Of a DNA stretch of 57,346 nucleotides, positions 25,780-54,121 are shown one piece after another; within the stretch, counting starts at the first letter, position 1, and each line of letters starts with the position of its first letter. Source of the stretch: Candidatus Bathyarchaeota archaeon (GTDB taxonomy: Archaea > Thermoproteota > Bathyarchaeia > Bathyarchaeales > SOJC01); assembly GCA_023131225.1 (NCBI GenBank), contig JAGLZW010000029.1:1-57346 (forward strand). Direction: 5' to 3'. A model generated the notes under the pieces. It worked only from the letters and a program-made list of their open reading frames with translations. It searched no databases and was not told where the DNA came from. The position numbers were made by a program, and so were the translations under genes.

Positions 25780-27267
25780 CTACTCCTCTTCTTCCTCTTT
25801 TGGGGGCCACTTCTCTTCCAGAAGTTTCGCTATTCCAGACGAATCTCTTGGACCTACCATAACATGCCAACCAGGCAAACCAACGTTCTTCAATTCGTCT
25901 TCCGTCTCTCCGCTTAGCCTAGCAGCCATACCGGGTATAATTAGGTACTTATGTTTAACCTTCTCTGCTACGCCTGACTTCTTAACCGCCTCTGCAATTG
26001 ATTCTGCCGTGAGGTATCTCCCGGCTACGGCGCTTTCAACGCTGATTCCTTCGGTGTCGGCAACAATTAGATAGCAGTCTGTCCCAAATTTCTTAATGTC
26101 AGACTCGACGGTGAAGTACGTTAAGGCGTAATTGGTGGTCAGCATCACCGGCGACATTTCATCAGGCTTCCCAAATGTATACAACTGTGAGTCAACTGAA
26201 ACCGGCTTTCTGGGGTCTGTGTAGATGTTAAACCTCCATATGACAGTTGGTAATTGAACCCATCCATCGAGGCTATGCATTATTAATATGTCGGCGTATC
26301 TGGAGATTAGCATAGAAGCAATGTATGCTTCCTCCCACGCCAGCATCTCCTTTGAATCCTTCTCGCCAGACCAAACTGTGATGGGCGTCCCAATAAGCGG
26401 GAAACCGAATAGCTCATCCCCGCCTTTACACGCATTTCTTCTCACCATAGTGAAGTTGTTGACGGTGTCCGATAATCCCTCACCAGGGAGTGTCCCAGGG
26501 TCGAGCACCAAATCCTCAACCCCATACTCGATCATGGTCTGCGATAGAGACCTCAGAAGGCCGAGGTCGTTCGGGGCAAAGATGGTTAATGGACAGCTGT
26601 ACATCAGCGCCAGATCAGCCATTTCTCTCCAATTGTCCTTGGTTGCCGCATAAATTAGTGGCCTCCTACCTGAAGCCGCGACCAGTCCAGCCTCCATAAC
26701 ACTAGGGTTGAACGCGCATAGAACCAGCGGCAGGTCTGTGACTTTGGCAACGTTTTCAACGGCTGACTTGAAAGTTGCCGGGTCATTTGATGTTGACCTG
26801 ACGGCTATCATATCAAGATTAAGATCCCTTCCTATGTAATTATACAAGAAGTTCTCAACCTTCCTCACTCTGTCTGTGAGCTCTTCCTCTTCGGAGAATC
26901 TACGCTGCATCGGCAGCTCATCGGTTACATCGAAGGCTAGTGCCACTGGGTTGTGGTAAGTGAACTCGTGGCGATACATGACAAGTTTGCCGCCTATTTT
27001 GACCGCGTGCTCTCCCGTGCCGATAGTGATCTTCTTAATCACTGGCGCTAGTATCTCTTGGAGTTTCTTGTACGACTTTTCGTGCTCCTTTTTCAGGATC
27101 GGGGGGCACTTTTCCAAGGAAGCCTCTCTATTAACCAGTTTGGCCGCGAAGGCTATGCAGTTTAGTTCTCCACACTCTTTACAGTTTGTTCTAGGAAGCA
27201 GCATGTACACATCGATGGGGCTGAGTTTCGTTGCAGCCTTCTTAATTTCCCTCTCGGTCATGTTCAT
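25780..27267 (-). CDS. cdhE: ACDS/CODH complex gamma subunit, corrinoid Fe-S protein large subunit
   Basis: 495 residues. The N-terminal 4Fe-4S domain has TNCKECGELNCIAFAAKL..CPP (27-54). A TIM barrel follows (LPLVLCAFNPSVMEAGL; ILMHSLDGW) and then a C-terminal cobalamin-binding Rossmann domain ending with LIIPGMAARLSGETE. It carries the methyl group on its corrinoid between the pterin carrier and CdhC, in complex with CdhD. It is last of the cdhC-D-E cluster, 7 bases after cdhD. Confidence 0.94.
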   Translation of the reverse strand: MNMTEREIKKAATKLSPIDVYMLLPRTNCKECGELNCIAFAAKLVNREASLEKCPPILKKEHEKSYKKLQEILAPVIKKITIGTGEHAVKIGGKLVMYRHEFTYHNPVALAFDVTDELPMQRRFSEEEELTDRVRKVENFLYNYIGRDLNLDMIAVRSTSNDPATFKSAVENVAKVTDLPLVLCAFNPSVMEAGLVAASGRRPLIYAATKDNWREMADLALMYSCPLTIFAPNDLGLLRSLSQTMIEYGVEDLVLDPGTLPGEGLSDTVNNFTMVRRNACKGGDELFGFPLIGTPITVWSGEKDSKEMLAWEEAYIASMLISRYADILIMHSLDGWVQLPTVIWRFNIYTDPRKPVSVDSQLYTFGKPDEMSPVMLTTNYALTYFTVESDIKKFGTDCYLIVADTEGISVESAVAGRYLTAESIAEAVKKSGVAEKVKHKYLIIPGMAARLSGETEDELKNVGLPGWHVMVGPRDSSGIAKLLEEKWPPKEEEEE

Positions 27268-27274
27268 CTCTTCC

Positions 27275-28525
27275 CTATATTCTTGTATTGACCCAGTTAG
27301 CTATTTTTTCGGGCTTAGCCTTACCCCTAGTCATCAACTGCTGTATGACCTTTCTCATGGTCCTGATGGCGTCCGGGTGCATCATCATGAACACATCAAC
27401 CCCAGCTAGGAGTAGAGCCAGCGCGGTTGTAGTCTCCCATAATGGTCCCCTGAGTCTCCTCGGCTCCCACTCAGGGCCCAACTTCAGCCAAGCCTCTCTT
27501 GCAGCCCAAGCGTTCGTTGTTCCGGCTAGGACTGGGTACTGAAGCTCTGAGTCTCCCATTAGCGCTGCCATCCTAGCGCGCTCGTGGATGGTGAATGAGT
27601 ACTCAAGTCCGTAGCCTAGGGCTGCCGTCGTGAGGTCCATTAGTATGTTATCTTCGGATATGTAATCGTAGAGTTTCCTGTTCAGCTCCTTAGCTCGGTT
27701 CAAGTCTAAGGCTGTGAATCCCAAGACTAATTGTCCATGTTTCCCGGCTGCCTTCGCCACGCCTTCGAGGACACCAGCTTCGTCCATGTCCAACGTAAGG
27801 GAGCTGAGCAAAACCCTCTCGCCTTCAGCCATCTCGGCAACCTTAGTGAAAACCTCGGCATCCTTCTTTGGATCACCGCAGCCTCCAATGATGAGGGGGA
27901 CATCCACTGCTTGCAGCACCTCCTCTACAGTTTTCACAGCCTCGGATGGTGGTGTGTCCTTAATAAGCGGGTCTATGCTCAGCAGATGCACTGTGACCAC
28001 GTCTACTCCCCACTTGTCAACTGCCATCTTGGCCCACGCAGCCGTGTCCTCCCAAACCTCCTCGACATGTATTCTTATCGCCTTCGGAAGCGTCACCTTC
28101 ATGTCGAATGTGTCTACGGCAATGGCGGGTAGGTGTGGCGGGGTCTTCTCGAATAGGTAGAATGCAGGGGTTGTTGCGCCTCCGATCGCTATGGTTTTGC
28201 CGCGACTACCTCCCTCACTCTTGGTAGCCCCAAGCGTTACCTCTCTAATCTGTCCAGGATATTCTTGGACAAAAGGAGTGAAGGAGGCTTCCAAGATCTT
28301 TGTGGGCTTCACTTTTGGCGGTGCGAGTGCGGATGGAGTGGGTGGTACAGCAGCTCTCAGTTTGGCAGAGGCTAAAACCGATGGCTGAAGGATAAGTTCT
28401 CCTATAGTTAGCTCCACATCCTCTAGCTCAATTTCACTTTCACCCTCCAAACCCAGAAGCTTCAGTAGCTCAGCAAGTTCGGTGGCAGCCTTTTTCTCCT
28501 TCTCTTCTTCTCCCAAGGTTTTCAC
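27275..28525 (-). CDS. cdhD: ACDS/CODH complex delta subunit
   Basis: 416 residues. TIM barrel of the small corrinoid-protein subunit: FTPFVQEYPGQIREVTLG (about 108-125), GGATTPAFYLFE, VDVPLIIGGCGDPKKDAEV and LDMDEAGVLE. An N-terminal ~100-residue acidic and proline-rich extension precedes the barrel. It pairs with CdhE to accept the methyl group from methyl-H4MPT. The start overlaps the cdhC stop by 4 bases, so translation is coupled. Confidence 0.94.
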   Translation of the reverse strand: MKTLGEEEKEKKAATELAELLKLLGLEGESEIELEDVELTIGELILQPSVLASAKLRAAVPPTPSALAPPKVKPTKILEASFTPFVQEYPGQIREVTLGATKSEGGSRGKTIAIGGATTPAFYLFEKTPPHLPAIAVDTFDMKVTLPKAIRIHVEEVWEDTAAWAKMAVDKWGVDVVTVHLLSIDPLIKDTPPSEAVKTVEEVLQAVDVPLIIGGCGDPKKDAEVFTKVAEMAEGERVLLSSLTLDMDEAGVLEGVAKAAGKHGQLVLGFTALDLNRAKELNRKLYDYISEDNILMDLTTAALGYGLEYSFTIHERARMAALMGDSELQYPVLAGTTNAWAAREAWLKLGPEWEPRRLRGPLWETTTALALLLAGVDVFMMMHPDAIRTMRKVIQQLMTRGKAKPEKIANWVNTRI

Positions 28526-29901
28526 CTCTCCACTCTTCGAATGATAACTTTCTTAGCATAGATCTTTGCGTCTTTGAGAATGATCTGGAACCCTCCAGCG
28601 GCAGTGGGTATTCCAGGAAGAGGAATCTCTGGTACCGCAACTTCCACTTCCTCCGCTTCGGGTGCCACTTCAACTGGTAAAGCCTTCCATCGTTCGACAA
28701 CTGGATGCTCCATCTTCTCAAGAAAGGCCTTCAATTCATCAATTGACTTTGTCTCGTTTTCTGTGGCTATTTTATCGACTACACCTTTTGGTACGAAGTC
28801 TTTGACGCGTTCCTTGACGCTGGATGGCATCCAAACTATACGGTTCCAACCTCCGTCAATCTGGAGAAACTTTGGGGATCTCATATATTCGATGGATAGT
28901 CCGTGGAAGCCGTCTACTTGCCGCCCTCCAGCCGTTGAGTCTGCCATGGTTGAGAAGGGTAATCCATTCACTGTTCTTTCGCTGAAACCTCTGTGAACGA
29001 TTCCCATGCCATCCACCTCAGGGATGTAGAAGGCTATACCCTCGAAGCATCCACAAGATGTGTGAGGATAATCAAAGGCTGTGTAAAGCCAAACTCGTGT
29101 GATTTCTCCCATCGTCCTTTCTTTTACAGCTTGGTTAGCCCCTGACCATTCACCCTTGAAAGCATCGAGGCACTCGCCTCTTTCGATCTTGAAGATCGGG
29201 CCCTTTGGGTCCACTCGTGCTGCAGCTCTGCCGTCGAACCAGCTGATGGCTCCGCAGTTAGCGTACCTTTGAGGTGTGATCACGCAGCAGTGAGTTGGAG
29301 CAAAGGACTGGCATAAAGTGCATCCATAAAATTCCTCGACATCCTCATCCTTTAAACCTCTGGCTTTAGCATCTCTAGAATCATAGATCTTAATCGCCTT
29401 TTCCATCATTTCTTTCACTTTTTCGGGTTCCGTAACGAAGGTTGTCTGTATCTTTTCGATGAATGGTAGATCGCTTTTGAACAGTCTATGCAAGACTTTC
29501 CCTATCAATTCGAAGTTGTTTAATCCCTTTTCGAAGGATTTTTTGCTTAGTCTCAGCCATATGTCGTATCTCTGATTCAAGTGCATGAATCCCTCAATGT
29601 AGTTGCAGAATTCGTGGACTCTTCTTTCTATAACGCCTTCAAGTTCTTCTTCAACTTCCTTTCCTGCGACATCGATCCAGATTCCACAGGGGTAGCTGCC
29701 TCCAAGCTCTAAGTCCTTGAGGTCTGGTCCTATCACTGTTATTTTTTCATCTTCGATTTCATCCATTGGCCTGCATTTTACAATCTCAAATTTCGATTCT
29801 ACTTTTGGGCCTCCAAGTTCAACGTGCATTTTGTTTCTTCGAATTCTTTCTCCTTCGTATATCACTCCAACGTCTACTGGAATGTCTTCAAACATGGACA
29901 T
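28522..29901 (-). CDS. cdhC: Acetyl-CoA synthase beta subunit (archaeal type)
   Basis: 459 residues, the short archaeal form that lacks the bacterial N-terminal CODH-binding domain. The A-cluster ligands lie in YGCTLCQSFAPTHCC (about 197-211), ANCGAISW and SCGCFEGIAFY, giving the 4Fe-4S/Ni-Ni site. It joins the methyl group, CO and CoA to acetyl-CoA. Its ATG is only 14 bases from the left 49-bp repeat of element 1. Before the insertion the cdhB stop codon overlapped this start. Confidence 0.95.
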   Translation of the reverse strand: MSMFEDIPVDVGVIYEGERIRRNKMHVELGGPKVESKFEIVKCRPMDEIEDEKITVIGPDLKDLELGGSYPCGIWIDVAGKEVEEELEGVIERRVHEFCNYIEGFMHLNQRYDIWLRLSKKSFEKGLNNFELIGKVLHRLFKSDLPFIEKIQTTFVTEPEKVKEMMEKAIKIYDSRDAKARGLKDEDVEEFYGCTLCQSFAPTHCCVITPQRYANCGAISWFDGRAAARVDPKGPIFKIERGECLDAFKGEWSGANQAVKERTMGEITRVWLYTAFDYPHTSCGCFEGIAFYIPEVDGMGIVHRGFSERTVNGLPFSTMADSTAGGRQVDGFHGLSIEYMRSPKFLQIDGGWNRIVWMPSSVKERVKDFVPKGVVDKIATENETKSIDELKAFLEKMEHPVVERWKALPVEVAPEAEEVEVAVPEIPLPGIPTAAGGFQIILKDAKIYAKKVIIRRVER

Positions 29902-29915
29902 TTTTTAACTCGCCT

Positions 29916-29964
29916 CCTAACTTACTTATTATCGTTTCAAAACTTTCATTCCAATCTTTAACCA
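29916..29964. repeat. attL: left 49-bp direct repeat of element 1
   Basis: Begins CCTAACTTACTTATTATCGT and ends CCAATCTTTAACCA. It is identical over 49 bases to 41267-41315. On the minus strand it encodes VKDWNESFETIISKLG, the conserved end of CdhB, and continues in frame outside the element as GELKNVHV-stop. This side therefore keeps the original cdhB tail. Confidence 0.95.
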
Positions 29965-30045
29965 ACCTCTATATCCTCCCCTTTTTTATGTGTTGCTGAA
30001 GTCGCAGCTTCGAGCTTGTTCTTCTGTGGAGTCCATGAAAACTGT

Positions 30046-30074
30046 TCTAACGTTAGAGAAAAAAGAAGGGGTTA
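30046..30074 (-). terminator. Palindrome TCTAACGTTAGA with CCCCTTCTTTTTT run
   Basis: On the minus strand the pyrimidine run CCCCTTCTTTTTTC is followed by the perfect palindrome TCTAACGTTAGA. The same pairing is found at 54916-54941 and 56207-56229 in element 2. Here it stands after the leftmost minus-strand genes of element 1, and probably ends their transcript before attL. Confidence 0.55.
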
Positions 30075-30168
30075 GTTAGCATTGCTGTGCCAAATCAACT
30101 CTATCAGCCGATCCGTCTTATTCCCCTCTGCAAGAGTTCTCTCAGTTTCTCTAAGAGCCTCTTCCCAC

Positions 30169-30740
30169 CTAAAGCTTCTGTGCTCCTTTGGATGCCTGTA
30201 TACGTCTTCTTATCCACTGTTTTCTGTCAATCCATGCTCTTTGTGACGCATTCAAAACTTTTTTGTAGGCTTGTTCTATGGGTATTTGGAATCGGTTTAT
30301 TTCATTCCGTAAGTCTTCAATGTAAACGAATTTGGTTAGGTAAATCCAAGTGTAAACTACGTCGCGGTGTCTCATTATTTTTGAAAGTAAAGGGATATTC
30401 GGATCATCCTGTACTAAGTAGCGTTGCCGTACCCATTCCTTCGTAAAGAAAGAGCGTAGATGGTTAGGCGTGAAACTCTCCCAGTTAAGAACGTCAGCCT
30501 TGCAACCCAATCTTTCAGTTTTTGCCAGAACCACTTTTTACCTATAGGCTTCCCAGCGATTTTCTTCCATTTATTCTTTCTTTGCAAAACATACCCGTTA
30601 GGCTGCCTTTCAAGTTTCATAAACTCTTTAGCAACTTCCCATTCAAGTGGCAGGGGATAGAGACATTTGTCTTTGCTGTCATTAACGTAGATTATGCCTT
30701 CGTCTAATAGGAAGTGCTCGTATCTTGCGTGTCGAATCTC
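30169..30740 (-). pseudogene. Decayed tyrosine recombinase inside element 1
   Basis: Two overlapping frames together give the catalytic half of an integrase. The first (from 30740) reads IRHARYEHFLLDEGIIYV to WFWQKLKDWVARL. After a shift near 30495 the second reads KADVLNWESFTPNHLRSFF (HxxR motif) and IMRHRDVVYTWIYLTK (H and Tyr motifs). The N-terminal half is missing; the frame begins directly after the stop of the 370-residue membrane gene. It is not similar in detail to the intact integrase at 40489, so it is from a different recombinase. Confidence 0.75.
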
Positions 30741-31853
30741 TTATAGAGTTGAAATGAGAATGAAAATCAAGGGGATGAGAGCCAATATAATAAAAACTGC
30801 TATTCCAAGGATTTGCTTCTTAATTTGCTCTTTCGACATCACGGCAAAGTAGAAGCATATGTAGGAAGGAACTACAATATACGTAAAGATTAGTGAAGCG
30901 GGTATATTTATTCTGCCAAATAAGGTAAACAGATAAATTATCATGAAGAGTACTAAAGAGAGATTTGAGGCTATCAAATCCCATCTACTGTAAGTTACCT
31001 TCTGCTTACGAGAATTCTTCTGATTCCCAAAAATACTGAAAATCCCAAAAAGTGTGTTACTGACTATCAAGTTAACTAAAAGAAACTCTGGAAAAGATAA
31101 TGAAGAACGATAGGGTAGGAATTTTTGGATTGCTATTAAGAATGTGGGAACAAAAACAAAGAGTGACAGGTGAATTCTTAATCTTTCAGCTAGTTTTTCT
31201 TTAGGATTCAACATCAAAGTAGCTCCAAGAAGATAATAGCATCCAATAATTGGAATCAAGAACTGCAGAATAGCAATAGATAAAGCGTTATCACTTCTTC
31301 CAATAGCAAAGGCTATTTCTTCGGTTTTAATGTACTCAATGGGAATTAAACCATTATCTGTTTTCCATAAATCCTTTAAAGAGTAAGCTTTAGACCCAGT
31401 AAAGAAAGCTTGATGCCCCTCAGATGACAGAGTGAAATTATGGTTAATAAAATATACATCATATACTTCAAAACGCAAATTATAAGAATCAAAAGGAAAA
31501 TGTTCACCCATCCCCTCTAAGAGCCACGTTGTCTGCTCAGACTCTCCTTGATAATACCATGTGCTAACCATATGTGCTCCTGTATTGTTGCACCAAATAA
31601 TCGTGTCTCCAGCACCAATGACCCATACACCTACTCTCGATTCATTATAAGGAAAGTTACTAATACACACAATTATCTTTAGATCTACAGTTTTCTGTGA
31701 CTGATCTATGTCCAAAATGTGAATGATTAACCTTACCTTAGCCAAATCATCATTTTCAACTTGGGCATAGACAAAGGAAAATAAAAGCAGTAAAGGGACT
31801 AAGACCACGATTGAAGTTAGGACGATCCTTGTAAAATCGCTTCTTTTGGGCAT
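30741..31853 (-). CDS. Channel-like membrane protein with extracellular beta domain
   Basis: 370 residues. A signal or anchor helix is at 10-30. An extracytoplasmic domain (about 31-180) contains GMGEHFPFDSYNLRFEVY (115-132). Several transmembrane helices then follow from about 190 (ALSIAILQFLIPIIGCYYLL, LFVFVPTFLIAI, LVNLIVSNTLFGIF, SLVLFMIIYLFTLF, IFTYIVVPSYICFYFAV, ILGIAVFIILALIPLIFILI). The FPFD motif before a four-or-more-helix bundle recalls pentameric ligand-gated channels and DUF4436-like proteins, but the helix count is higher and I cannot assign a family. First of a minus-strand gene group; function in the element unknown. Confidence 0.6.
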   Translation of the reverse strand: MPKRSDFTRIVLTSIVVLVPLLLLFSFVYAQVENDDLAKVRLIIHILDIDQSQKTVDLKIIVCISNFPYNESRVGVWVIGAGDTIIWCNNTGAHMVSTWYYQGESEQTTWLLEGMGEHFPFDSYNLRFEVYDVYFINHNFTLSSEGHQAFFTGSKAYSLKDLWKTDNGLIPIEYIKTEEIAFAIGRSDNALSIAILQFLIPIIGCYYLLGATLMLNPKEKLAERLRIHLSLFVFVPTFLIAIQKFLPYRSSLSFPEFLLVNLIVSNTLFGIFSIFGNQKNSRKQKVTYSRWDLIASNLSLVLFMIIYLFTLFGRINIPASLIFTYIVVPSYICFYFAVMSKEQIKKQILGIAVFIILALIPLIFILISTL

Positions 31854-31895
31854 AAATTGTATTATAGTAATGATCTTAATGTAAATGTTAGGCTT

Positions 31896-32354
31896 CTAAC
31901 AGTATTCTTGTACGTATGTTTGAGCATCAACTATCTGAATGTTTTCACTACTCAGCATTCTGGCAAAGTTCTCAGTTTGGTCAGGGTCATTGGATATAAG
32001 CAGAACTTGATGTCTATTGTTTCCCTTAGCTTCGATAGCTAGACCATATAGAAATCTGTCTTTCCTAGAAACTCTAAATACTGGTTGATGTCTACTTGCA
32101 TTTTTGTCGTTTATGTCCTTAACAAGAACTTCATCATATACACTTCTTAGAAAAGGTTGAGCTTTCATCGATAGCCTCTTAGCAATCGCACCTATGTAAT
32201 GCTTCTGGAGTCGAGTAGATTTGATGATGTACTGATGTTCTCTCCTTATCTTTTCAAATTCTGGGCAATTATCACCTTTCACCCTTGAAATTGCAATATC
32301 TAGGAATACATTTGCATCTAACAGGACTCTAGCATTCCTATAATGATGTGGCAA
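31896..32354 (-). CDS. PIN-like nuclease, partner of the ATPase
   Basis: 152 residues. LLDANVFLDIAISR (11-24) gives the first acidic residues of a PIN fold. SRKDRFLYGLAIEAKG (about 96-111) and VLLISNDPDQTE (about 117-128) fit the later acidic positions. PIN proteins are Mg-dependent RNases, often toxins or defence effectors. The start is 10 bases after the ATPase stop, so both genes are in one transcript. Read together, they look like a two-gene toxic-effector or anti-invader unit. Confidence 0.7.
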   Translation of the reverse strand: MPHHYRNARVLLDANVFLDIAISRVKGDNCPEFEKIRREHQYIIKSTRLQKHYIGAIAKRLSMKAQPFLRSVYDEVLVKDINDKNASRHQPVFRVSRKDRFLYGLAIEAKGNNRHQVLLISNDPDQTENFARMLSSENIQIVDAQTYVQEYC

Positions 32355-32364
32355 ACTTCATCCT

Positions 32365-33705
32365 CTAAAGTGCGCTAGAAACCATTTTCTTCTCTGCTTT
32401 TACTATACTTGGTACAAAGCCCTTTACTCTTCCATCAGAAAGTACGGTTAGTCTTTCAATTGATGATCCTTTTTGGCTCTTCCTCAGATGATATACAGAT
32501 AATTCATTCTTTGTTAAACTATATCCTAAAGCTTTCTCTGAGAAAAGTGGCTTAAATGCTGTCAGAAAATCCCCACTATGAGAAGTCACAATAATCTGCT
32601 TCTGCAATCTTTTCGCATGAGCAAAAAGCTTTGGGAGTTCTAGTTGAAGATTCAAATGTAGACTTATTTCAGGTTCTTCTATTGCAATAGTGCTGTCAAG
32701 TTTTGAGTGGAATATCTGAGTTAAGACTACAAGTATCTGTTTTGACCCATGTCCAGCAAAAACTATGTCGTTGTTGGCGTCCATAATTGGATCCTTGAAT
32801 GTTGCTTTAACACGATTGTTTCCTACATAACCCGCATGCAATTTGTCCAAACCAAAAGTTCTAGCCCACTCAGTCACATAGTCTCGTGACCTTTCTAACT
32901 CCACATTGCCAAATATCAGAGACAATACCCTTACTAAATCCTCTCCTTCAACACCAACCCACTCAGCCTTTCCCGCAGTATCTGTTAATAAACGAGGAGT
33001 TGCTCTTGTCGGACGTAGAATAAAATATTTGTTTATCATCTCTCTTATTATTCTAACTAGATCTCTCGAAAATCTATTGTAAACATTTGTTGTTTGTCGC
33101 ACTTCATCCGTTGGTTTCCCACTTTTTGAAAAACTGAAAGTATTGTCAATCAACAAAGACCTTGGATCACCAGTGCATTCTACTCTACCAGCAACTTTTT
33201 TGTTCGGCACATAAACATGATTTCTATGTGTACCTTTTTGTGATACGAACTCAACCCTTTCTAATGTTTCATCATTCAGCAGTAGGGTTTGCTTTGTCTC
33301 AAAAGGCTGGTTTTTCCTAGATTGTCTGAAGGATAGTTCATATCCAATTTCTTTGAATTTTATTGGAAATGGGAGATACTCCTTTATTACTTTAAAATCC
33401 GAATAAATAAGATTGTTAATGAGTTCTTCAGAAGTTAGATTAATCCCGAGTCCAATTGTAATCCATTCTTCTTCATTGTTATTAGACACAATGTCCGTAT
33501 AAGAGCCAAAGTCAACAGGAGATTTGAATGGGTCTTGTCCAAGTCTCATCATATATCCCATCCCCTGCCTTAAAAGTTGAATTGCTTCAAGAACACTTGA
33601 TTTCCCAGAGCCATTTTCACCGTAAATCACAGTAATAGGAGCTAGTTCTAATTTGACGTCTTTCAAACATCGAAAGTTTTTGATTTCTATTCTCGAAAGA
33701 AACAT
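32365..33705 (-). CDS. ABC/SMC-like ATPase (AAA_15/AAA_21, OLD-type ATPase half)
   Basis: About 446 residues from ATG 33705; an upstream ATG at 33765 would add 20 hydrophobic residues with no clear role. Walker A is YGENGSGKSSVLEAI (28-42). The signature region GHGSKQILVV comes late (about 330-345), Walker B is DSTIAIEEPEISLH and the switch His is in IIVTSHSGDFL. No TOPRIM or other nuclease domain follows, so it differs from full OLD proteins. It is co-transcribed with the PIN-like gene at 31896, which may supply the nuclease. Confidence 0.85.
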   Translation of the reverse strand: MFLSRIEIKNFRCLKDVKLELAPITVIYGENGSGKSSVLEAIQLLRQGMGYMMRLGQDPFKSPVDFGSYTDIVSNNNEEEWITIGLGINLTSEELINNLIYSDFKVIKEYLPFPIKFKEIGYELSFRQSRKNQPFETKQTLLLNDETLERVEFVSQKGTHRNHVYVPNKKVAGRVECTGDPRSLLIDNTFSFSKSGKPTDEVRQTTNVYNRFSRDLVRIIREMINKYFILRPTRATPRLLTDTAGKAEWVGVEGEDLVRVLSLIFGNVELERSRDYVTEWARTFGLDKLHAGYVGNNRVKATFKDPIMDANNDIVFAGHGSKQILVVLTQIFHSKLDSTIAIEEPEISLHLNLQLELPKLFAHAKRLQKQIIVTSHSGDFLTAFKPLFSEKALGYSLTKNELSVYHLRKSQKGSSIERLTVLSDGRVKGFVPSIVKAEKKMVSSAL

Positions 33706-33866
33706 AATTGTCAATAAGGCTAGGACTAGATAAAATTTTGTTATAGAGGAATTGTTGATTATCATTTCGACGCATCAACATCTAGTAAATCACTATAGTT
33801 GAAATGCGGAAAAGTTATAGCATAACTAAAGGAACTAGTTGAACTTGGAAGAGGTAGATTTTTGCA

Positions 33867-34457
33867 TTGAATGGTGATTTACTTATTCTCCTCCTAGGTG
33901 GAATCATTGCCATTTTGTCTTCGGTTGTAACCTATTATCTAAACTATATTCTTAGAATAAAAGAGCAAAGTATTTCCAGAGAGTTTACAATGCGAAAAGA
34001 GGCAAGACACTTTTTTCAAACTTTGTACGGTATCGTTAGTCGTCTAACTGATTTTATGAGATCTTATACTGAAGAAGATATTGACAAACCTTTAATGCTA
34101 TCTAAAGTGGGCTATAAGAGAGTCTTACGAGAAGAAATAGTCAAAGAGTACAAGAATGCATACAAGGAGGGAATTGAACTTTGGTCAAAAGCTGCCAAGG
34201 AGGGTTTTGAAATCTTTCTACCTCCAGATTTAGCTGATGAATTGGCTGTCTTCTGGGCTTTTGCTAGTTTTCTCAAAAGGCAAAATAATTGGAAAGAAGT
34301 AGAAAAGGAACTACCGATTTTCGTTATGCGCTCAGAAAGGATTATGGATATGATTGAAGAGTCACTGGGTCTGAAAAGAAGAACAACAATGAAAAGACCG
34401 AAATGGTTAAGATGGAGGCAAATACGTTCTATTATTAAGGGTGAAAAAGCTGCCTGA
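33867..34457 (+). CDS. Membrane-anchored helical protein
   Basis: 196 residues. One N-terminal transmembrane helix (LLILLLGGIIAILSSVVTYYL) is followed by a long charged helical cytoplasmic part. No family recognised. TTG start; the gene is divergent from the ATPase/PIN unit and shares its promoter region (33706-33866). Its 3' end overlaps the next small gene (34441) by 17 bases. Confidence 0.6.
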   Translation: MNGDLLILLLGGIIAILSSVVTYYLNYILRIKEQSISREFTMRKEARHFFQTLYGIVSRLTDFMRSYTEEDIDKPLMLSKVGYKRVLREEIVKEYKNAYKEGIELWSKAAKEGFEIFLPPDLADELAVFWAFASFLKRQNNWKEVEKELPIFVMRSERIMDMIEESLGLKRRTTMKRPKWLRWRQIRSIIKGEKAA

Positions 34458-34614
34458 AGAAAAAAAGAAAAAAGGTCCTTATTTTGCCAAAGAAACTGCT
34501 GTAAAAACAAGAAAAGTCTCCACAATACGTAAGGGACTTGTTAGAACCTCTGATGTTTCCAAATATCTGAAGACATTAGAAAGGCGTGCAAGTCAAAAGA
34601 AGAAAGAAACGTAA
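34441..34614 (+). CDS. Small basic protein
   Basis: 57 residues from GTG 34441 to TAA 34612-34614, overlapping the end of the preceding gene in another frame. Very rich in Lys and Arg (KKLPEEKKKKG at the start, RRASQKKKET at the end). It may be a nucleic-acid-binding or antitoxin-like peptide. No homolog recognised. Short and lysine-rich, so confidence is limited. Confidence 0.45.
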   Translation: MKKLPEEKKKKGPYFAKETAVKTRKVSTIRKGLVRTSDVSKYLKTLERRASQKKKET

Positions 34615-34666
34615 AATAAAACATCTACTCTTTAGAGCGAGAAGAAAAGAGAAGCTACTTTTCAAG

Positions 34667-34973
34667 ATTTTATGGCTTGTGGAAGAAACTTCTAAATCAT
34701 ACATTCAAGAGAGCTTTCTTTTGCATTTTGGACAAGCCGCAGGATATTCTTTCATACTGACTCCGCACAGAAAGCATATACAAATGTTGCACTGGAGACA
34801 ATGCCAATTAGCTCCAGTGATTCTTCGTCTACAAAGATAACAAGGCTTGGTTAGACACGTATCAGACATAGTGTCCTTTTTTCAGAAGAGGGTATTTAGA
34901 GACTTTGAAGCAACGACAAATGGCAAAGCAGAGAGAAGAGTGAAAGTTCCAAGTTCCAGAAGCCATGCATGCA
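34667..34973 (-). repeat. About 307-bp repeat shared (inverted) with element 2
   Basis: The minus strand of this segment is about 88-90% identical by eye to 53767-54072 on the plus strand. It covers a complete 54-residue gene and about 100 bases upstream, including the region CAAAGTCTCTAAATACCCTC that is likely its promoter. Similarity fades on both sides. Confidence 0.85.
34705..34869 (-). CDS. Four-pair Cys zinc-ribbon protein
   Basis: 54 residues, ATG at 34869 and TGA at 34705-34707. The Cys pairs are CYLC (10-13), CLQCNIC (about 24-30), CFLC and CPKC, so a double zinc site is expected. It is nearly identical to the product of 53871-54035 in element 2. The changes are mostly silent or conservative, which shows that both genes are, or recently were, under selection. 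Function unknown; likely a conserved part of this element family. Confidence 0.75.
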   Translation of the reverse strand: MSDTCLTKPCYLCRRRITGANWHCLQCNICICFLCGVSMKEYPAACPKCKRKLS

Positions 34974-34986
34974 TTGAGAAGACGTA

Positions 34987-35232
34987 CTAAATCACCTTTT
35001 TTTCACGTAGCTTATTTTCTAACTCGAAGATTTGTTGTCTCAAAGCGTAGATTTCATCCTCATCAGAATAAAGCCACCATGCCATTAACACGTTTAGAAA
35101 TGTGAAAAGTATAGGCGCTAAAAAGAAGATAGAGAGGTATGTTTCGTTCCATACGCTATTAGGTATAAAGGACAATCCGACAAGTTCTGCGAAGAAAACT
35201 GCAAGGTAAATGAGAAATGCTAAAACACGCAT
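34987..35232 (-). CDS. Two-helix membrane protein
   Basis: 81 residues. Two transmembrane helices (VLAFLIYLAVFFAELVGL and YLSIFFLAPILFTFLNVLMAWWL) are followed by an acidic coiled-coil tail (DEDEIYALRQQIFELENKLREKK). Architecture is typical of small element or virus membrane proteins. No family recognised. ATG start at 35232. Confidence 0.6.
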   Translation of the reverse strand: MRVLAFLIYLAVFFAELVGLSFIPNSVWNETYLSIFFLAPILFTFLNVLMAWWLYSDEDEIYALRQQIFELENKLREKKVI

Positions 35233-35438
35233 TATCTTACATCCTCAATTCTGAAAGGTTCGTTTAACTTTTTATGTTTATTGGCGGCGTACATCCTTGA
35301 GCGTTGTAACAGGACCCTATGTATGCATGCACAACATAGAAGCGAGAAATGCAATGGATGTGCTTTTCTAGGTTAGTAGTGGAGACATCTCCCGCATTCT
35401 CTCCATTTTTTATGTGCTTGCATTTAGACGAATAGAAT

Positions 35439-36206
35439 TTACTTGTTTGGAAAAAGAGCATTTAATACCTTTATCATTCTTCTATATGCTTGAAAAGCTA
35501 TCTCTTCTATTAGTTCATTCTGTATGATTCTCCAGTATGTGAAGTCGAACGGTTCATAACGAACGGGTTTACGCTGCTCAAGATAGTCCAAAACAGAGAA
35601 CTCCTCCAATATTTTGCCCTTTGTATCTCTTTTTGAGAATGTTTTTTCCTCAATCGTCTTTCTTTTATCTGGTTCAACAAACTGAAGAAGCTTACGAATA
35701 TCTCTAAGCATTATCCTATTTGCCCAAATTTCTAGCTCTGGTTCTCGCGGTGTGAGTGTCCCTGGCTGTTTTATTTCAAAAGGATTACCAATATATAGCG
35801 GATGAGCGACAATTTCGTTTCGAGTTTTTCTCAACCAATCCGCATCTCTGAGCAAGCTAGTACACTTATCGTTTGTTCTTCTTAGTTCCTCAATGACCTT
35901 CTTGAAGCTAAATTTCTTCACTTCTATCTCCCAATATGTTTGTTCCCAATCTTCTGAAAGGAAAATCAAAGTATGCTTAAGCGTAAGCTCGGCTGCAATT
36001 GCAGAGCAAATGATGCAGCTTCTGAAACATCCATATATAAAGGAACTCTTTGCTTCTTCACAATAATCAGCTATTCGAAAGGTAGAAAAATCAGGCAATT
36101 TTAAAGATGCTAATCTATTAAGTCGGGACGCTCTCAAAGTTTTCTCATGTTCGTTGTTCTTACGGAAAATCACACCGTTGCGTAAAGGTGAACTCTCACC
36201 GTTCAA
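35439..36206 (-). CDS. HEPN-like helical protein
   Basis: 255 residues, all-helical. LRKTRNEIVAHPLY (125-138) contains R129-NEIVA-H135, which fits the RX4-6H motif of HEPN RNases. The region before it (SSFIYGCFRSCIICSAIAAELTLKH) resembles the first HEPN helix that covers small Cys/Ala residues. A DUF4145-like protein is also possible. It is a lone gene in the element; the TTG start at 36206 is uncertain. If active, it would be an RNA-targeting effector. Confidence 0.55.
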   Translation of the reverse strand: MNGESSPLRNGVIFRKNNEHEKTLRASRLNRLASLKLPDFSTFRIADYCEEAKSSFIYGCFRSCIICSAIAAELTLKHTLIFLSEDWEQTYWEIEVKKFSFKKVIEELRRTNDKCTSLLRDADWLRKTRNEIVAHPLYIGNPFEIKQPGTLTPREPELEIWANRIMLRDIRKLLQFVEPDKRKTIEEKTFSKRDTKGKILEEFSVLDYLEQRKPVRYEPFDFTYWRIIQNELIEEIAFQAYRRMIKVLNALFPNK

Positions 36207-36469
36207 GTTTCGTATACACTTCCATTATTAAGACACAATCCCCTGTTGGTATAAGTTTTGTGAGTTGCCAAGTTTTTCCTGAAGTTGAAATTCTTTGTTT
36301 GTTTAAGGGATTTTTGGGAATATCCGTAGATTTTCGTGTGTTCTTTTATGAACTCCACAAAAAAAGAAGGGGTTGAAGGGCGGATACTATTAAGTCTGTT
36401 GACCAACCTAAAAACTGAATTACGAGTTCAGAAACTTAAAACCTAATAAGTTGTTTCACTTTACATAGT

Positions 36470-36874
36470 GTGAAAGTTATGACAAATAGTGAAAAAGAAA
36501 ATAAGGCGAAGCTCTCAAAAGAAGAAGTGAAGAATTTAGTTGAGATGCTTAGGTATCTGATGGATGCATATGGTTTTTTTGCTGAGAAGCTGGGAAAAAT
36601 CCAAAAGTCTCATAAAGAAGCTTTTGATTCCATGTTTTCACTTGAATCTGCTGAAAAACTACCAGAAATGATGAGCATGATGGTTGAAAAAGCCCCTGAA
36701 ATGGGTAAACTATATACTAGCATATTTATTAGAATGATGACCGTCATGCCTAGGATAAATAAGCTAATGACCTTATCAGCAGATGAAAAAATAAAGTTGG
36801 GGGAAAGCCTCAAAACTTTGGCTAAAGACCTTGATAAGTTGCTAGAATGGATTGATAAGATGGAAGAAAAATGA
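36470..36874 (+). CDS. Helical protein, first gene of a three-gene HEPN unit
   Basis: 134 residues, entirely helical and Met/Lys/Glu-rich (LVEMLRYLMDAYGFFAEKLG, LPEMMSMMVEKAPEM, LAKDLDKLLEWIDKM). No family recognised. GTG 36470 lies in the inverted repeat TTTCAC-N10-GTGAAA; ATG 36479 is an alternative start. The stop overlaps the next gene as ATGA. Transcribed with the next two genes. Confidence 0.6.
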   Translation: MKVMTNSEKENKAKLSKEEVKNLVEMLRYLMDAYGFFAEKLGKIQKSHKEAFDSMFSLESAEKLPEMMSMMVEKAPEMGKLYTSIFIRMMTVMPRINKLMTLSADEKIKLGESLKTLAKDLDKLLEWIDKMEEK

Positions 36875-37335
36875 TGTTAGAAATCCAAGAATTGGAAAAA
36901 CCGTTTAAGAAAGTCTCACATGGGTTAATGGCAGGCAACATTAGGCTACTGGAAACTGGTATAACCCATCCTTTTATAATACTAAATGATAGAACCAAAC
37001 TTCTAGCTAGAATTTTATCAGATAGAACACCATGGTTGATCAAAACTGAAAAAACTATCCGCAATTTCAGTGAAATCATATATGGGATTAGAGGGATAGA
37101 AGGTCTTTATCTTAATATGAGGGAAGTTTACAACCGCACACCATCTGGATATATTACCGAGATTAGAGTGATTATTCCCGAAAGCAACCGAGATATTGAA
37201 TGTGCGATATATGACGCTTTTGGAGAGCTTTTAAGAAAATCTCGCCCATTATTATTTGATCTTCACATAATCAAACTTAGAGGTCGGAAGCAAGAAGAAG
37301 CTACTCCTGAAGGATTTTGGCGATATGAATGTTGA
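36871..37335 (+). CDS. Unknown protein, middle gene of the HEPN unit
   Basis: 154 residues, alpha/beta. It has a core beta segment YITEIRVIIPESNRDIECAIYDAFGELL that looks like a small catalytic or binding fold. No motif allows a name. Starts at the ATGA overlap with the preceding gene, and its stop overlaps the start of the HEPN gene by 11 bases, so the three are translationally coupled. Confidence 0.55.
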   Translation: MMLEIQELEKPFKKVSHGLMAGNIRLLETGITHPFIILNDRTKLLARILSDRTPWLIKTEKTIRNFSEIIYGIRGIEGLYLNMREVYNRTPSGYITEIRVIIPESNRDIECAIYDAFGELLRKSRPLLFDLHIIKLRGRKQEEATPEGFWRYEC

Positions 37336-37690
37336 TTCCCATCTTTTGAAAGCGGATCGAAATAAGACATTCTTACATAAATTTTTGATGGGAATCATTG
37401 ATAAGTGTCCAGATTGGGTTTCTATTGTGGCTTTCTATTGTGCCCTTCATTTTATAGAAGCTTTTCTAAAGAAAAACCACGGTTTAGATTTTAAACATCA
37501 CGAAGAGAGACATACATTTCTGAGTCACAGTGTTCCCAAAAGAATTTTCTCGGCTTACTATCGCCTTTACGATTATGCGTTTAATTCGAGATACAAAGCG
37601 TTAAAAGATGCTCCCACTTGTGATGAAGCAAATTCATCAGTTCAATTTGATCTTGCTGATGTAGAGAGTTTTGTTAGGGCAAATATTTAG
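37325..37690 (+). CDS. HEPN domain protein
   Basis: 121 residues. WVSIVAFYCALHFIEAFLKK (about 32-51) resembles the first helices of the HEPN/DUF86-like family (W-x-A-FY-A-H-EA). HHEERHTFLSH follows and then IFSAYYRLYDYAFNSRYKA, with the Y-L-Y-A-SRY pattern typical of such proteins. No clear RX4-6H motif is seen, so it may be a non-catalytic HEPN or rely on the partner. Third gene of the tightly overlapped operon. Confidence 0.62.
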   Translation: MNVDSHLLKADRNKTFLHKFLMGIIDKCPDWVSIVAFYCALHFIEAFLKKNHGLDFKHHEERHTFLSHSVPKRIFSAYYRLYDYAFNSRYKALKDAPTCDEANSSVQFDLADVESFVRANI

Positions 37691-37702
37691 TCTACGGTAT
37701 CT

Positions 37703-38107
37703 TTAGGGTATACCGCTATAGACTTGAACTTCTTTTTCTTCCTTTAAGGCGTAAAAAATCGGATTCGTTAAACTCATAAAACGGTCTTCCAGTTCAACCA
37801 AAGGCACATCATCCCGCAAAGCCAACGCGAAGAGCGCTGACATTGGTAACTCAACTTTCTCGTGCCTAGCCCAATCCATTTCAACGCTGTACGCTGGAAA
37901 AATCTCAGGTGTAGCATTGCGTTTTAAGTGGACAAGAACAACGTCGTCGTTCATAGCAATTATTCGGTCTTTCAAGTTGAAAACGTGTGGTTGCTTCAAG
38001 ATTTCTTTTTTGCTTACGAAGACAGAAATGAAATCTTGTGGGATAGTGACTTGTTTGGCTTTTATAACGTTGACGTGGTTGCGGTTGAACAGTTTTGGAA
38101 ACTTCAC
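37703..38107 (-). CDS. Element protein of unknown function
   Basis: 134 residues, mixed alpha/beta, soluble. No recognised family. Features: VTIPQDFISVFVSKKEIL and a segment DDVVLVHLKRNATPEIFPAYSVEMDWARHEKVELP. The first four bases overlap the end of the basic gene at 38104, so both belong to a minus-strand operon driven from the divergent operator region 38293-38430. Confidence 0.55.
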   Translation of the reverse strand: MKFPKLFNRNHVNVIKAKQVTIPQDFISVFVSKKEILKQPHVFNLKDRIIAMNDDVVLVHLKRNATPEIFPAYSVEMDWARHEKVELPMSALFALALRDDVPLVELEDRFMSLTNPIFYALKEEKEVQVYSGIP

Positions 38108-38292
38108 TTTTTACGCCCCTTCTTACGCTTCTTCTTCTTGAGGTGTATCTTAGGTTTCCTTTGTGCAATTTGCCTAGCTTTACCAAAGTCACCTTTCAGA
38201 ACAGCTTTTCGCATATCGCTGTTTCTTTTCGACCTAAAACTAGAATACTTCCTTTGATACTTTTTTTGATTATTTTTACTCTTGTAAGGCAT
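38104..38292 (-). CDS. Small highly basic protein
   Basis: 62 residues, about half Lys or Arg (tail KKKKRKKGRKK). A nucleic-acid-binding role is likely. ATG at 38292; 12 bases upstream begins the first copy of the palindromic operator. Element 2 has a shorter counterpart at 48835-48930 with the same basic tail. Confidence 0.6.
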   Translation of the reverse strand: MPYKSKNNQKKYQRKYSSFRSKRNSDMRKAVLKGDFGKARQIAQRKPKIHLKKKKRKKGRKK

Positions 38293-38304
38293 GCGTTCTC
38301 ATTA

Positions 38305-38366
38305 GGTTTGATACCAAACCTTTATTAAACAGTTTCGGTAGTGGTTACTTGGTTTGATACCAAACC
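38305..38366. promoter_or_regulatory. Double palindromic operator between divergent element genes
   Basis: GGTTTGATACCAAACC occurs twice, at 38305-38320 and 38351-38366, 46 bases apart. Each has 6-bp inverted arms. Between them are TTTATTAAAC and AGTTTCGG, which could hold a TATA box. The two copies sit between the minus operon (38104, 37703) and the plus operon (38474 onward), so one repressor may control both. The repressor is not identified. Confidence 0.75.
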
Positions 38367-38473
38367 CAAAAAGGTAACTAAGAATTGAAGGAAAAATCCG
38401 TGGACAAGACAAAGTTCAGGTCGAAGACGTGGCATCACCGCCTTCCCGACGGCAAGCTCGTAAGGTGCAAACC

Positions 38474-39178
38474 ATGACTGAACATTCTGAGAAAATCACC
38501 CTTGAGAAGAAGCTCACGATAGAAAGACCTTTCACGACAGAGCCAAAAACACGAAGGAAAAACCGCAAGCTAGGAATAGTGAAGAGACGAGTTATTGAGC
38601 TACGGGAAAGCTTCTTTCCAACTGTAAGAGTGCCATATGTAGCAGTTGTACGCCGCATGAAACAGATGTGTCTATGTGACTGTAAGACAATTTTGAATTA
38701 TTTGGGACGTACTGACACAGTAACAAAGACTGTGATAGACCACACGGTTAAGTATGAGAAATCAGGACAGCTTATTCCAAAGAAGCACACGTTTAGGCGT
38801 ACTTTACATGAGCAAGAAGGGTACATAGCTGTTCTTGAGCAAGGCCATCTTGAGAAAGATGGGAATGGTTCTGTTTCGGTTGTGTGGAATCATCAGGTAC
38901 AGACTGATTTTTTGCGCGTATTGGGCAACAATAATGAATTGGTGTGTGGTTCAAAGAACTTTTCTCTCTCTCCTTTAGGGGAAGGAAACGAAGAGGCTGG
39001 GGAGAGTTTGGTTGACAGGGATATGTCTACTACTATAAGAGAATATAATAATAATAATAATCTCATAGGGGGAGAGAGAAAAAAGTCCAAAGATAGTGAA
39101 GGTGAAAGTGAAAGTAATCGGCTTTCTGATGAAGAAAACATGATTCTTGAAGCTGCCAAAAAGGAGGCTTCAACGTGA
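38474..39178 (+). CDS. Element protein with basic N-terminus
   Basis: 234 residues from ATG 38474, supported by AAGGTG six bases upstream; GTG 38429 would add 15 residues. The N-terminus is basic (KTRRKNRKLGIVKRR), then VRVPYVAVVRRMKQMCLCDCKTILNYLGR looks like a helix-turn-helix. A low-complexity tail has five Asn from an AAT repeat and GEGESES-like acidic residues. A DNA-binding role is likely. First gene of the plus-strand operon 38474-40297. Confidence 0.6.
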   Translation: MTEHSEKITLEKKLTIERPFTTEPKTRRKNRKLGIVKRRVIELRESFFPTVRVPYVAVVRRMKQMCLCDCKTILNYLGRTDTVTKTVIDHTVKYEKSGQLIPKKHTFRRTLHEQEGYIAVLEQGHLEKDGNGSVSVVWNHQVQTDFLRVLGNNNELVCGSKNFSLSPLGEGNEEAGESLVDRDMSTTIREYNNNNNLIGGERKKSKDSEGESESNRLSDEENMILEAAKKEAST

Positions 39179-39513
39179 GTAGGCAGGTTGTTCGTAAGAA
39201 GCCTTATTTCGGTTTGGACTTCACTGAGGTTCTTAAGCTAAGTGTGAAAGTTCCAGTCACCACAACTATAGATCGCAGGTCTAAGCTTGCTTTCACTGGT
39301 ATCTTGGTCTTAGATTTTCACAAGAATTCGTATAGGTATGATAATGAGGCTGTTCTCGCTGTGTGGAGCTACAGCTACCCAGTTGTGAAGGCACGTTCTA
39401 GTAACCGCAATTATGGCCGTTCTGAAATTATCCTTCCTCTCAGTTGTGAAGTGCGCGATTTCCTTATGGCTTGTGCGTGCGAGGTTGATGCGCATCTTAA
39501 AGGTGTGAAGTAA
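39175..39513 (+). CDS. Element protein of unknown function
   Basis: 112 residues, GTG start overlapping the preceding stop (GTGA). Beta-rich (KLSVKVPVTTTIDRRSKLAFTGILVLDF; AVLAVWSYSYPVVKARS). It could be an OB-like or other small beta domain, perhaps a single-strand-binding protein, but this is only from appearance. Part of the plus operon. Confidence 0.55.
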   Translation: MSRQVVRKKPYFGLDFTEVLKLSVKVPVTTTIDRRSKLAFTGILVLDFHKNSYRYDNEAVLAVWSYSYPVVKARSSNRNYGRSEIILPLSCEVRDFLMACACEVDAHLKGVK

Positions 39514-39529
39514 TGGAAGGTGACTTAAC

Positions 39530-39703
39530 ATGACGGATTCTTTTGAGAATGTTGGCATATTGAAACTTGCTAGTACGGGGCGATCCTACAAGCTTGAGTA
39601 TTTAGGCTTCATCTCGGCCTATGTTAGCGTGAAGGATGTGGAGCTTGTGCGTCAGGGGAAGAAGAAGACAGCTACGATTTTCAAAGTGAAAAGGAGAGAG
39701 TAA
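39530..39703 (+). CDS. Small element protein
   Basis: 57 residues, ATG 39530 after GGAAGGTGACTTAAC (good binding site), TAA 39701-39703. Beta-rich sequence (ILKLASTGRSYKLEYLGF, then VSVKDVELVRQG) with a basic C-terminus (FKVKRRE). No family recognised. Part of the plus operon; one base separates it from the membrane gene. Confidence 0.6.
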   Translation: MTDSFENVGILKLASTGRSYKLEYLGFISAYVSVKDVELVRQGKKKTATIFKVKRRE

Positions 39704-39704
39704 G

Positions 39705-39920
39705 ATGGCGGATCCAAAACCCGCGTTAGCGTTGCTTGTCATTGTAGGCTTAGTCTCTCTCTTCTGTTGGATCGCATTGCCTCAGGTGATGAGAAGCGCC
39801 ACAACGATTCACGGCAACGTAGCGTTTCAAATATCTACTTACGTCTTGTTTGCTGTTCCCCTGTTGCTAGTTGGCTTGGTTGGTTTTATTCTATTCGTGA
39901 AGAGTAGGGAATCAGATTGA
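39705..39920 (+). CDS. Two-helix membrane protein conserved in both elements
   Basis: 71 residues. Two transmembrane helices (LALLVIVGLVSLFCWIAL and YVLFAVPLLLVGLVGFILFV) joined by a short loop with RSATTIHGN. It is about 70% identical to the product of 56753-56962 in element 2, including the opening MADPKPA. Small two-helix proteins of this size are major capsid proteins in spindle-shaped archaeal viruses, but no direct match can be claimed. ATG follows the previous stop by one base. Confidence 0.75.
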   Translation: MADPKPALALLVIVGLVSLFCWIALPQVMRSATTIHGNVAFQISTYVLFAVPLLLVGLVGFILFVKSRESD

Positions 39921-40297
39921 GAGCGCGATTGCAGAGAAATGATGTTCTTTTCATATTGGACTTGCTGAAAAAAGAGAAGGAGAGGCATGACGTTGAAATG
40001 GAAGACCTGCGACAGGAGATAGACCTCTTGGAAGTTTGGGTTAAAAAATGGAGGTGGAGGTTGATTAACTATTCCTATTTCGAGTTTCGAGATGGCTTCA
40101 ATTTTATGAAGGCTCGACTTGCTTATTTGAAAAGTCAACAAAACTTCATTAAGATGTTTACGTTCTCGCGGGCGCTGCACTATTTAACTAAGCGATATGA
40201 AAGCTTGCTAAGAGGTAAGGCTGGAAGACCGTTGGGCGTGACTGATTGGGGTAAGCATGACCTTGAGGCAGTTGTTAAAGAAAGAAAGCGTCCATAA
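39917..40297 (+). CDS. Element protein with coiled-coil and basic end
   Basis: 126 residues. TTG start overlaps the stop of the membrane gene (TTGA). A charged coiled coil (LLKKEKERHDVEMEDLRQEIDLLEVWVKKW) is followed by a basic, aromatic region. No family recognised. Last gene of the plus operon, ending just before the phased repeat module at 40300. Confidence 0.6.
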   Translation: MRARLQRNDVLFILDLLKKEKERHDVEMEDLRQEIDLLEVWVKKWRWRLINYSYFEFRDGFNFMKARLAYLKSQQNFIKMFTFSRALHYLTKRYESLLRGKAGRPLGVTDWGKHDLEAVVKERKRP

Positions 40298-40299
40298 TC

Positions 40300-40340
40300 G
40301 TTGAAATTGTCAAACTCTGCTACTTATACCATTTATATAT
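40300..40340 (+). promoter_or_regulatory. Phased 9-bp repeat + AT-rich box (module D)
   Basis: Repeats at 40300 (GTTGAA), 40309 (GTCAAA) and 40318 (TGCTAC; weak) are 9 bases apart. TATACC-ATTTATATATA begins at 40325, exactly 25 bases after the first repeat. The layout is the same as three modules in element 2. A hairpin CTCTATCTAAGAGAG follows. It is likely a promoter with upstream operator, serving the region before the integrase. Confidence 0.6.
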
Positions 40341-40488
40341 ATTATCTCTATCTAAGAGAGAAATAGGCTTTCTTTTGAATCAAAAGCTTGTAAAGCATGG
40401 GTGTTTAACCTTTTGCACGAAAGCTTTAATAAAGCATGAACGCCTATGTATTTCGCGGCTAGGTAACTAGCCAGTAGAAGGCGATAAA

Positions 40489-41271
40489 ATGGAAAGTCTG
40501 AAAATGAAAAGAGGAAGCACTGGAAGAAAAGGATACTGGGCATCACATCAATACTCAAGACGCGCAGTGGTTGACCTAAATGGCAAAGAGTTCTGCGGTT
40601 GGGGAGCATTGGCTAAGATGTGCGAAGCTGCTATGGACACTTCACGGTACACTTGGGAGCAACAGTTTCTATGCGAAAGAGACAGAGCGTTAATCGCCAT
40701 ACTATTCTTGACGGGAGCTAGAGCCGACGAAGTTGTTAGGCTAAGGAAGTCTATGTTTACTTTCGACGAAGCATGGATATACGGGAAAATGATTCCAGTT
40801 GTCAAGTCGTGGCGATATGTGGATAGCAAGAAAACAAGAGTGGAAAAGCAAGCGCGTGGAGAAAAGCCTAGAACAAAGACCCTAAAGAAAACGCGCGAGA
40901 TAGTTTTTCCCCGAAGAGAACCCTTAAGCGAAATATTGATAGAATGGCTAGATCAAGTGCAAGACTACCTATTCCCCTCAAAGTTTCACCGACACCGAAA
41001 ACACCTAAGCCCGATACGCGCCTACCAAATAGTATGCGATTTAGCAGAGAGAACAGGCTTCGATATGTGGCCTCACCGACTAAGATCAGAACGCGCTAGT
41101 CAACTAGGAAGCGAATACGGATATAGAACAAGAGACATAATGCGGTTCTTCGCGTGGGAGTCTGAGAAAACAGCAAGACGCTACGTTCACGAAAGCATAG
41201 AAGACATGAAAAAAAGAATCCCCGAAATAAGCTACAACCTTTCAGTTAAGGATTGGCTACTGACTACCTAA
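40489..41271 (+). CDS. int: Tyrosine recombinase (integrase) of element 1
   Basis: 260 residues. Catalytic residues: Arg in LTGARADEVVRL (about 80), a Lys-rich beta region (KTLKKTREIVFP), HRLRSERASQL (HxxR), then FAWESEKTARRYVHES, in which Tyr is the nucleophile and a Trp replaces the usual second His. No N-terminal core-binding domain of full size is seen, so it is a compact integrase. ATG start after AGAAGGCGAT. Its TAA (41269-41271) lies in the right att repeat, so attP was at the 3' end of int. Confidence 0.88.
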   Translation: MESLKMKRGSTGRKGYWASHQYSRRAVVDLNGKEFCGWGALAKMCEAAMDTSRYTWEQQFLCERDRALIAILFLTGARADEVVRLRKSMFTFDEAWIYGKMIPVVKSWRYVDSKKTRVEKQARGEKPRTKTLKKTREIVFPRREPLSEILIEWLDQVQDYLFPSKFHRHRKHLSPIRAYQIVCDLAERTGFDMWPHRLRSERASQLGSEYGYRTRDIMRFFAWESEKTARRYVHESIEDMKKRIPEISYNLSVKDWLLTT

Positions 41272-41802: not shown

Positions 41803-41803
41803 G

Positions 41804-54072: not shown

Positions 54073-54121
54073 ACTGAAGTCAGGTAACGAGATGCTAGTT
54101 AGAAAGGAGAGGGTATCATAA

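Follow-up and report, generated by a model that had tools for sequence, protein, structure and literature searches.

A tyrosine-recombinase integrative element in the 3′ end of cdhB divides a bathyarchaeal CODH/ACS operon, probably without supplying a new promoter

Integrative elements seated in the 3′-distal regions of protein genes have been described in Thaumarchaeota, NitEve-E2 being one example (in the part of Krupovic et al. 2019, PMC6563490, that treats such elements). In E. coli, prophage HK022 lies at torS-torT, and a transcript start inside the prophage has been mapped there (in the part of Carey et al. 2019, PMC6814406, that treats this locus). We analysed a stretch of 57,346 nt (the window), which is contig C29 of a 1.9-Mb Bathyarchaeon genome and carries a CODH/ACS operon, which has a central place in the carbon fixation and acetyl-CoA metabolism of an abundant archaeal class. 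All cdh genes of the window lie on the minus strand and each exceeds the cut-off of its matching NCBIfam model: cdhA (alpha; 41804..44158; TIGR00314), cdhB (epsilon; 41257..41811; TIGR00315, 4.6e-40), cdhC (beta; 28522..29901; TIGR00316, 2.6e-197), cdhD (delta; 27275..28525; TIGR00381, 4.9e-126) and cdhE (gamma; 25780..27267; NF003195, 1.3e-174). The nearest GTDB records to this CdhB are Bathyarchaeota MAGs.

Between cdhB and cdhC lies an element with a unique part of ~11.3 kb (29965..41266), bounded by 49-bp direct repeats and matched by empty sites in relatives. The copy now before cdhC (attL; 29916..29964, minus strand), common to cdhB and the element, and the copy within the 3′ end of the present cdhB (attR; 41267..41315, minus strand) are exact repeats (49/49 positions, 100% identical), the repeat being part of cdhB. 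At the right end of the element we found an intact integrase gene, int (40489..41271, plus strand; 260 aa; PF00589, Phage_integrase, 4.3e-16), whose stop codon lies within attR, 5 nt into the repeat. Alignment of its product with 3 relatives showed that R78, H196-x-x-R199 and Y232 are kept, which we take to be the catalytic residues of a tyrosine recombinase. An SSV-type (suicidal) integrase was rejected because the int gene is whole and not split at att. The element belongs with the tyrosine-recombinase integrative elements that insert in protein genes, as every testable feature of that class was found: direct repeats that match the target, a recombinase with R/HxxR/Y, an empty orthologous site, and a target reading frame restored with a stop that the element supplies. 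The 49-bp exact repeat, the intact int ending in attR, a second genome arranged alike and the empty sites in relatives argue that the arrangement is more than chance.

Of the element proteins, 10 were compared with PHROGs as a check for a provirus (capsid, terminase and packaging genes), and only integrase and AAA ATPase families matched at useful E-values. Relatives of int were found neither in IMG/VR nor among phage records; the GTDB search gave 13 pattern stretches, none of them confirmed, and an int relative was absent from all 46 GTDB cdhB loci. Within the element, the gene of an AAA_15-type ATPase with NsnB- and AriA-like PADLOC matches (32365-33765, minus strand) is followed by a small ORF that is PIN-like by eye (31896-32354, minus strand), a possible element-borne defence pair. 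Broken frames next to attL (30169-30741, minus strand) resemble a decayed second recombinase by eye. As a candidate, the decayed recombinase (30172-30741) was dropped: its 121-aa piece has no Pfam match, a weak phrog match (E = 0.011) and no useful blast match.

When the flanks were joined in silico, they gave a 190-aa CdhB ending SKLGGELKNVHV and a stop (GGELKNVHV-stop), with an overlap of 14 nt with cdhC and the TGA of the empty-site cdhB at 29890-29888, within cdhC. The joined flanks contain GTCCATGTTTGA, read in two frames, which bears out the sequence-only reading that a VHV-stop end of CdhB overlapped the start of cdhC before the insertion. Two further proposals of that reading also stand: cdhB now ends SKLGSQ-stop, SQ and the stop coming from the element, and the direct contact between cdhB and cdhC has been lost to an intervening 11.3 kb. 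Its statement that cdhC now has only element DNA upstream does not hold, since the 63 nt before the ATG are pre-insertion sequence (14 nt of host flank and 49 nt of att). The likely ribosome-binding site of cdhC, GGAGG (29913..29917, minus strand), straddles the att/host border and is unchanged by the insertion, and GGAGG-like words occupy the equivalent place before cdhC in many relatives. Because CdhB tails are naturally variable among relatives (GGE, GEK, GGN, GGK, ENVNV and others), the swap to SQ is probably harmless.

We found CdhB in 63 of the 81 genomes searched. In 30 fetched cdhB loci, a subset of these matches, cdhC follows cdhB directly in 27, the exceptions being this genome, G009 and G066, in the last of which no cdhC was found. 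In GTDB, 41 of 46 cdhB loci run directly into cdhC. Only 4 of those 41 (L143, L149, L168 and L177) show the overlap (gap −14), which is thus the less common arrangement. In two Bathyarchaeal MAGs (L154, L158), cdhB and cdhC are 74 nt apart. The gap contains a short ORF in which the start of cdhC and the tail of cdhB seem to be repeated in tandem, and a site resembling a promoter (10.5-10.8 bits) stands 48 nt ahead of cdhC, which perhaps is naturally uncoupled in these MAGs. A relative with a single-contig genome (G042:C1:7151-7459; L133, L172) carries a truncated extra copy of cdhB, with 81% identity across residues 3-105.

A related element occupies the cdhB site of G009, which belongs to the same family and another genus. 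On contig C16 its integrase, 85% identical to that of the window, adjoins cdhB, whereas contig C22 has a 26-nt element edge followed by an att copy and then by cdhC; the junctions thus lie on separate contigs, whose union we infer. The att repeat of G009 (~42 bp, by eye) differs from that of the window by several bases, so the two copies match each other within each genome. In G001, a member of the window's own genus, the cdhB site is empty. With G009 occupied and the congener empty, either the site was entered on more than one occasion, or the element was lost repeatedly or regained. An element found in two genera that spares every gene and splits the operon offers a natural test of whether co-transcription of the subunits matters.

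Sibling elements sit at another site. One of 8.2 kb, with a 35-bp att and genes in common with the window element, is on contig C20 of the same genome, and one with the same 35-bp att is on contig C9 of G001. Their integrases are 45% identical to that of the window and belong to another subfamily. At the left edge, a block at 29973..30077 is shared with the C9 element (92% over 102 bp) and with the C20 element (91% over 56 bp). The idea that this block is an arm site of the integrase was weakened, as 92% identity is shared by elements whose integrases are 45% identical; being better conserved than the integrase, the block should have some role beyond the present explanation. No Rfam-type RNA family was detected in the left-edge region at E up to 1. 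Within the block lies the 17-mer TTCGRGCTTGTTCTTCT (30009-30025). Of the order's 101 genomes, 5 contain it, with 8 exact and 3 one-mismatch occurrences (L058, L059, L072, L100, L101, L102, L078); these are found at the edges of elements and also in intergenic DNA that has no integrase, and an ORF often follows. A different block of ~300 bp, ~90% identical, is present in the window element (34668-34974) and in the C20 and C9 elements, and recurs inverted at 53767-54077, near the right end of the window, where parts of another related element seem present.

Four left edges were compared, two at the cdhB site and two at the other site. Read into the element, they are ACCTCTATATCCTCCCCTTTTTTATGTG (window), CCTCTATATCTCCCCCTTTTTTATAT (G009, contig end), ATCCCCCCTTTTTTTTGTG (C20) and ATCCCCTCTTTTTTTGTG (C9). 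Their constant feature is a C/T tract, CCCCTTTTTT in the window (29978..29987, plus strand), found in 4/4 edges. Its bottom strand is part of a TATA-like word, ACATAAAAAAGG (29990-29979, minus strand), whose T is present in only two of the four, the siblings at the other site (C20, C9) having an A in its place. From this word the sequence-only reading had proposed that the left edge supplies a new promoter for cdhCDE. We scored it with a promoter model of 16 positions built from 30 tRNA loci of the same genome, which reads AAA-N-A-TTTAAA, and obtained 2.87 bits (position-wise p = 0.009), a value that random 126-nt stretches reach or exceed in 54% of cases. In sample, none of the 30 tRNA genes falls below 6.3 bits and 0/30 score as low as the left edge; in leave-one-out scoring their 10th percentile is 5.8 and their median 8.7. 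The word is thus present where it had been placed, at no more than chance would give, and the promoter built upon it lost its footing, with a score not above random and the T missing from half of the edges. No outward, HK022-like promoter signal above chance was detected in the left edge, by a test of low power. On protein genes, the model gives a median best score of 6.1 for divergent first genes versus 5.1 for operon-internal genes; because it separates the two weakly, the negative is moderate, not final, and a weak or unusual promoter could escape it. A de novo search for motifs ahead of protein genes was dropped after it converged on purine-rich start regions.

Tracts of the form C4-Y-T5+ number 15 in 320 kb of this genome, and 6 of the 15 have a stop on the same strand no more than 20 nt upstream. 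In the predicted excised circle, the left-edge tract would follow the int stop by 57 nt (window) or 106 nt (C20). The constancy of this tract in the edges, together with the occurrence of its class after stops, suggests that it is the int terminator, moved 11 kb from int by integration. A second tract, CCCCTTCTTTTTT (30059..30071, minus strand), ~160 nt before cdhC, is a probable terminator of leftward element transcripts; elsewhere in the genome the same tract occurs at three places downstream of a stop on its own strand, at distances of 6, 19 and 20 nt. The pyrimidine terminator earlier placed just inside the element is therefore upheld as to the tract and the habit of its class, and weakened by the behaviour of T6 runs, which are no more frequent after operon ends in sense (16/173) than in antisense (16/173). 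On this count we rejected T runs in general as terminators, and only the C4-Y-T5+ class is informative. At 41215 (minus strand) we also noted GGGGATTCTTTTTTT. It is antisense to int, lies 42 nt beyond the element-supplied stop of cdhB and could end the cdhAB transcript; G009 has no T run at the matching place.

The explanation that we favour, and consider probable, is a site-specific integrative element with quiet ends, whose attachment site is approximately the last 49 nt of cdhB and which sets cdhAB apart from cdhCDE while supplying no evident new promoter. One att copy restores CdhB to its conserved end SKLG, which the element extends by two residues and a stop, and the other, with the 14 host nt, leaves both the leader and the ribosome-binding site of cdhC unchanged. 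The ends of the element may be quiet by design: the minus-strand C/T tract at 30071 would stop element transcripts ahead of cdhC, the plus-strand tract at 29978 would end the integrase mRNA in the circular form, and the supposed TATA box is the bottom strand of the latter. Quiet ends would leave cdhAB separated from cdhCDE with no evident promoter gained, and cdhCDE would then depend on a weak start in att or the leader, on very long read-through, or on cells free of the element.

A start of that first kind could be older than the insertion. Near cdhC, the best-scoring site, AATGAAAGTTTTGAAA (5.53 bits), lies 49 nt before the ATG in the att core and was therefore present before the element arrived, so that cdhC might have its own weak promoter in the cdhB tail, duplicated by the att core and kept in either state. 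The same word is found in G009, and best sites at about −47 to −53 are seen in many relatives, strong in few of them (L154, 10.8 bits; L161, 11.2). Against coding windows the signal appeared strong (p = 7e-10; 25 loci, cdhB identity at least 70%), but it was gone against dinucleotide shuffles (p < 0.05 at 1 of 41 loci; p = 0.59 in the window), and homologous codons explain the common position. We regard such a promoter as possible, though somewhat unlikely.

Alternatively, the left edge could be a real outward promoter driving cdhCDE, as prophage HK022 provides for torS in E. coli, where the torS promoter is replaced without clearly visible −10 and −35 elements (in the part of PMC6814406 on this locus). 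Selection for a promoter could also account for ATAAAAAAGG, the reading common to both cdhB-site elements (window and G009); they read A[C/T]ATAAAAAAGGGG, and the two elements at the other site read ACACAAAAAAA. Because the left-edge 17-mer recurs away from integrases, the idea retains a low probability. Of the 10 places that we examined, 7 have the 17-mer followed by the start of an ORF in the same orientation, ordinary ORFs included, but at 3 the next ORF has the opposite orientation. Since the score is indistinguishable from that of random sequence and the model's near-invariant T is lost in two of four edges, we hold an edge promoter to be unlikely.

The element might also act as a switch, integration lowering cdhCDE and excision restoring the operon under the control of the cell or the element. 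Its intact integrase and identical att copies would allow this, and occupied and empty relatives both exist, but no excision factor was recognised, and elements of this kind usually keep the cost low by inserting at the 3′ end of a gene with the reading frame restored (in the part of PMC6563490 on their integration); we think such a use improbable. Equally doubtful is the broader proposal of a recurrent cdhB-targeting element of Bathyarchaeia serving as a reversible operon divider. When integrated, it would have cdhAB and cdhCDE transcribed separately and the int mRNA run without its terminator, antisense into cdhBA; when excised, both the operon and the int terminator would be restored. Least plausible is translational coupling through a possible 25-codon leader ORF (29888..29965, minus strand) that would re-create the CdhB tail at the junction and stop within cdhC, for although GGGGAGG stands nine nt before its TTG and the frame is open up to the old stop, G009 has no start codon there and the ORF is not conserved.

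Among the matches listed in our literature search on insertions in cdh genes, or on an excision switch of a cdh operon, we saw nothing on cdhB. XerA/XerC-type recombinases (NF040815, PDB 4a8e) have weak similarity to Int over its catalytic half, but Int scores 38 bits against the NF040815 cut-off of 220 and so is not XerA, and its gene adjoins its own att sites. The archaeal tyrosine recombinases whose attB lies in a protein gene share the integrase class and a non-tRNA target with this element, although cdhB is not named among the targets in section 19 of the review (PMC8371274). As with HK022, a host gene has been severed from its own upstream signals and an element edge placed before it; there, however, a prophage start has been mapped, whereas the edge here is without promoter signal above chance (compared with the part of PMC6814406 on torS). 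The likeness is closest to elements of the NitEve-E2 type, in which a protein gene carries att in its 3′ end, the element's stop replaces the old one and restores the reading frame, and orthologous sites are both occupied and empty. The att of NitEve-E2 is 13 bp rather than the 49 bp found here, and the present host is a Bathyarchaeon; because cdhB sits within an operon, the insertion also separates downstream genes, unlike in the thaumarchaeal cases (as presented in the part of PMC6563490 on these elements). Insertion at a 3′ end with an element-supplied stop is thus already known, and what is new is the target gene cdhB and the cutting of a central operon, which adds a central metabolic gene to the known integration targets of archaea.
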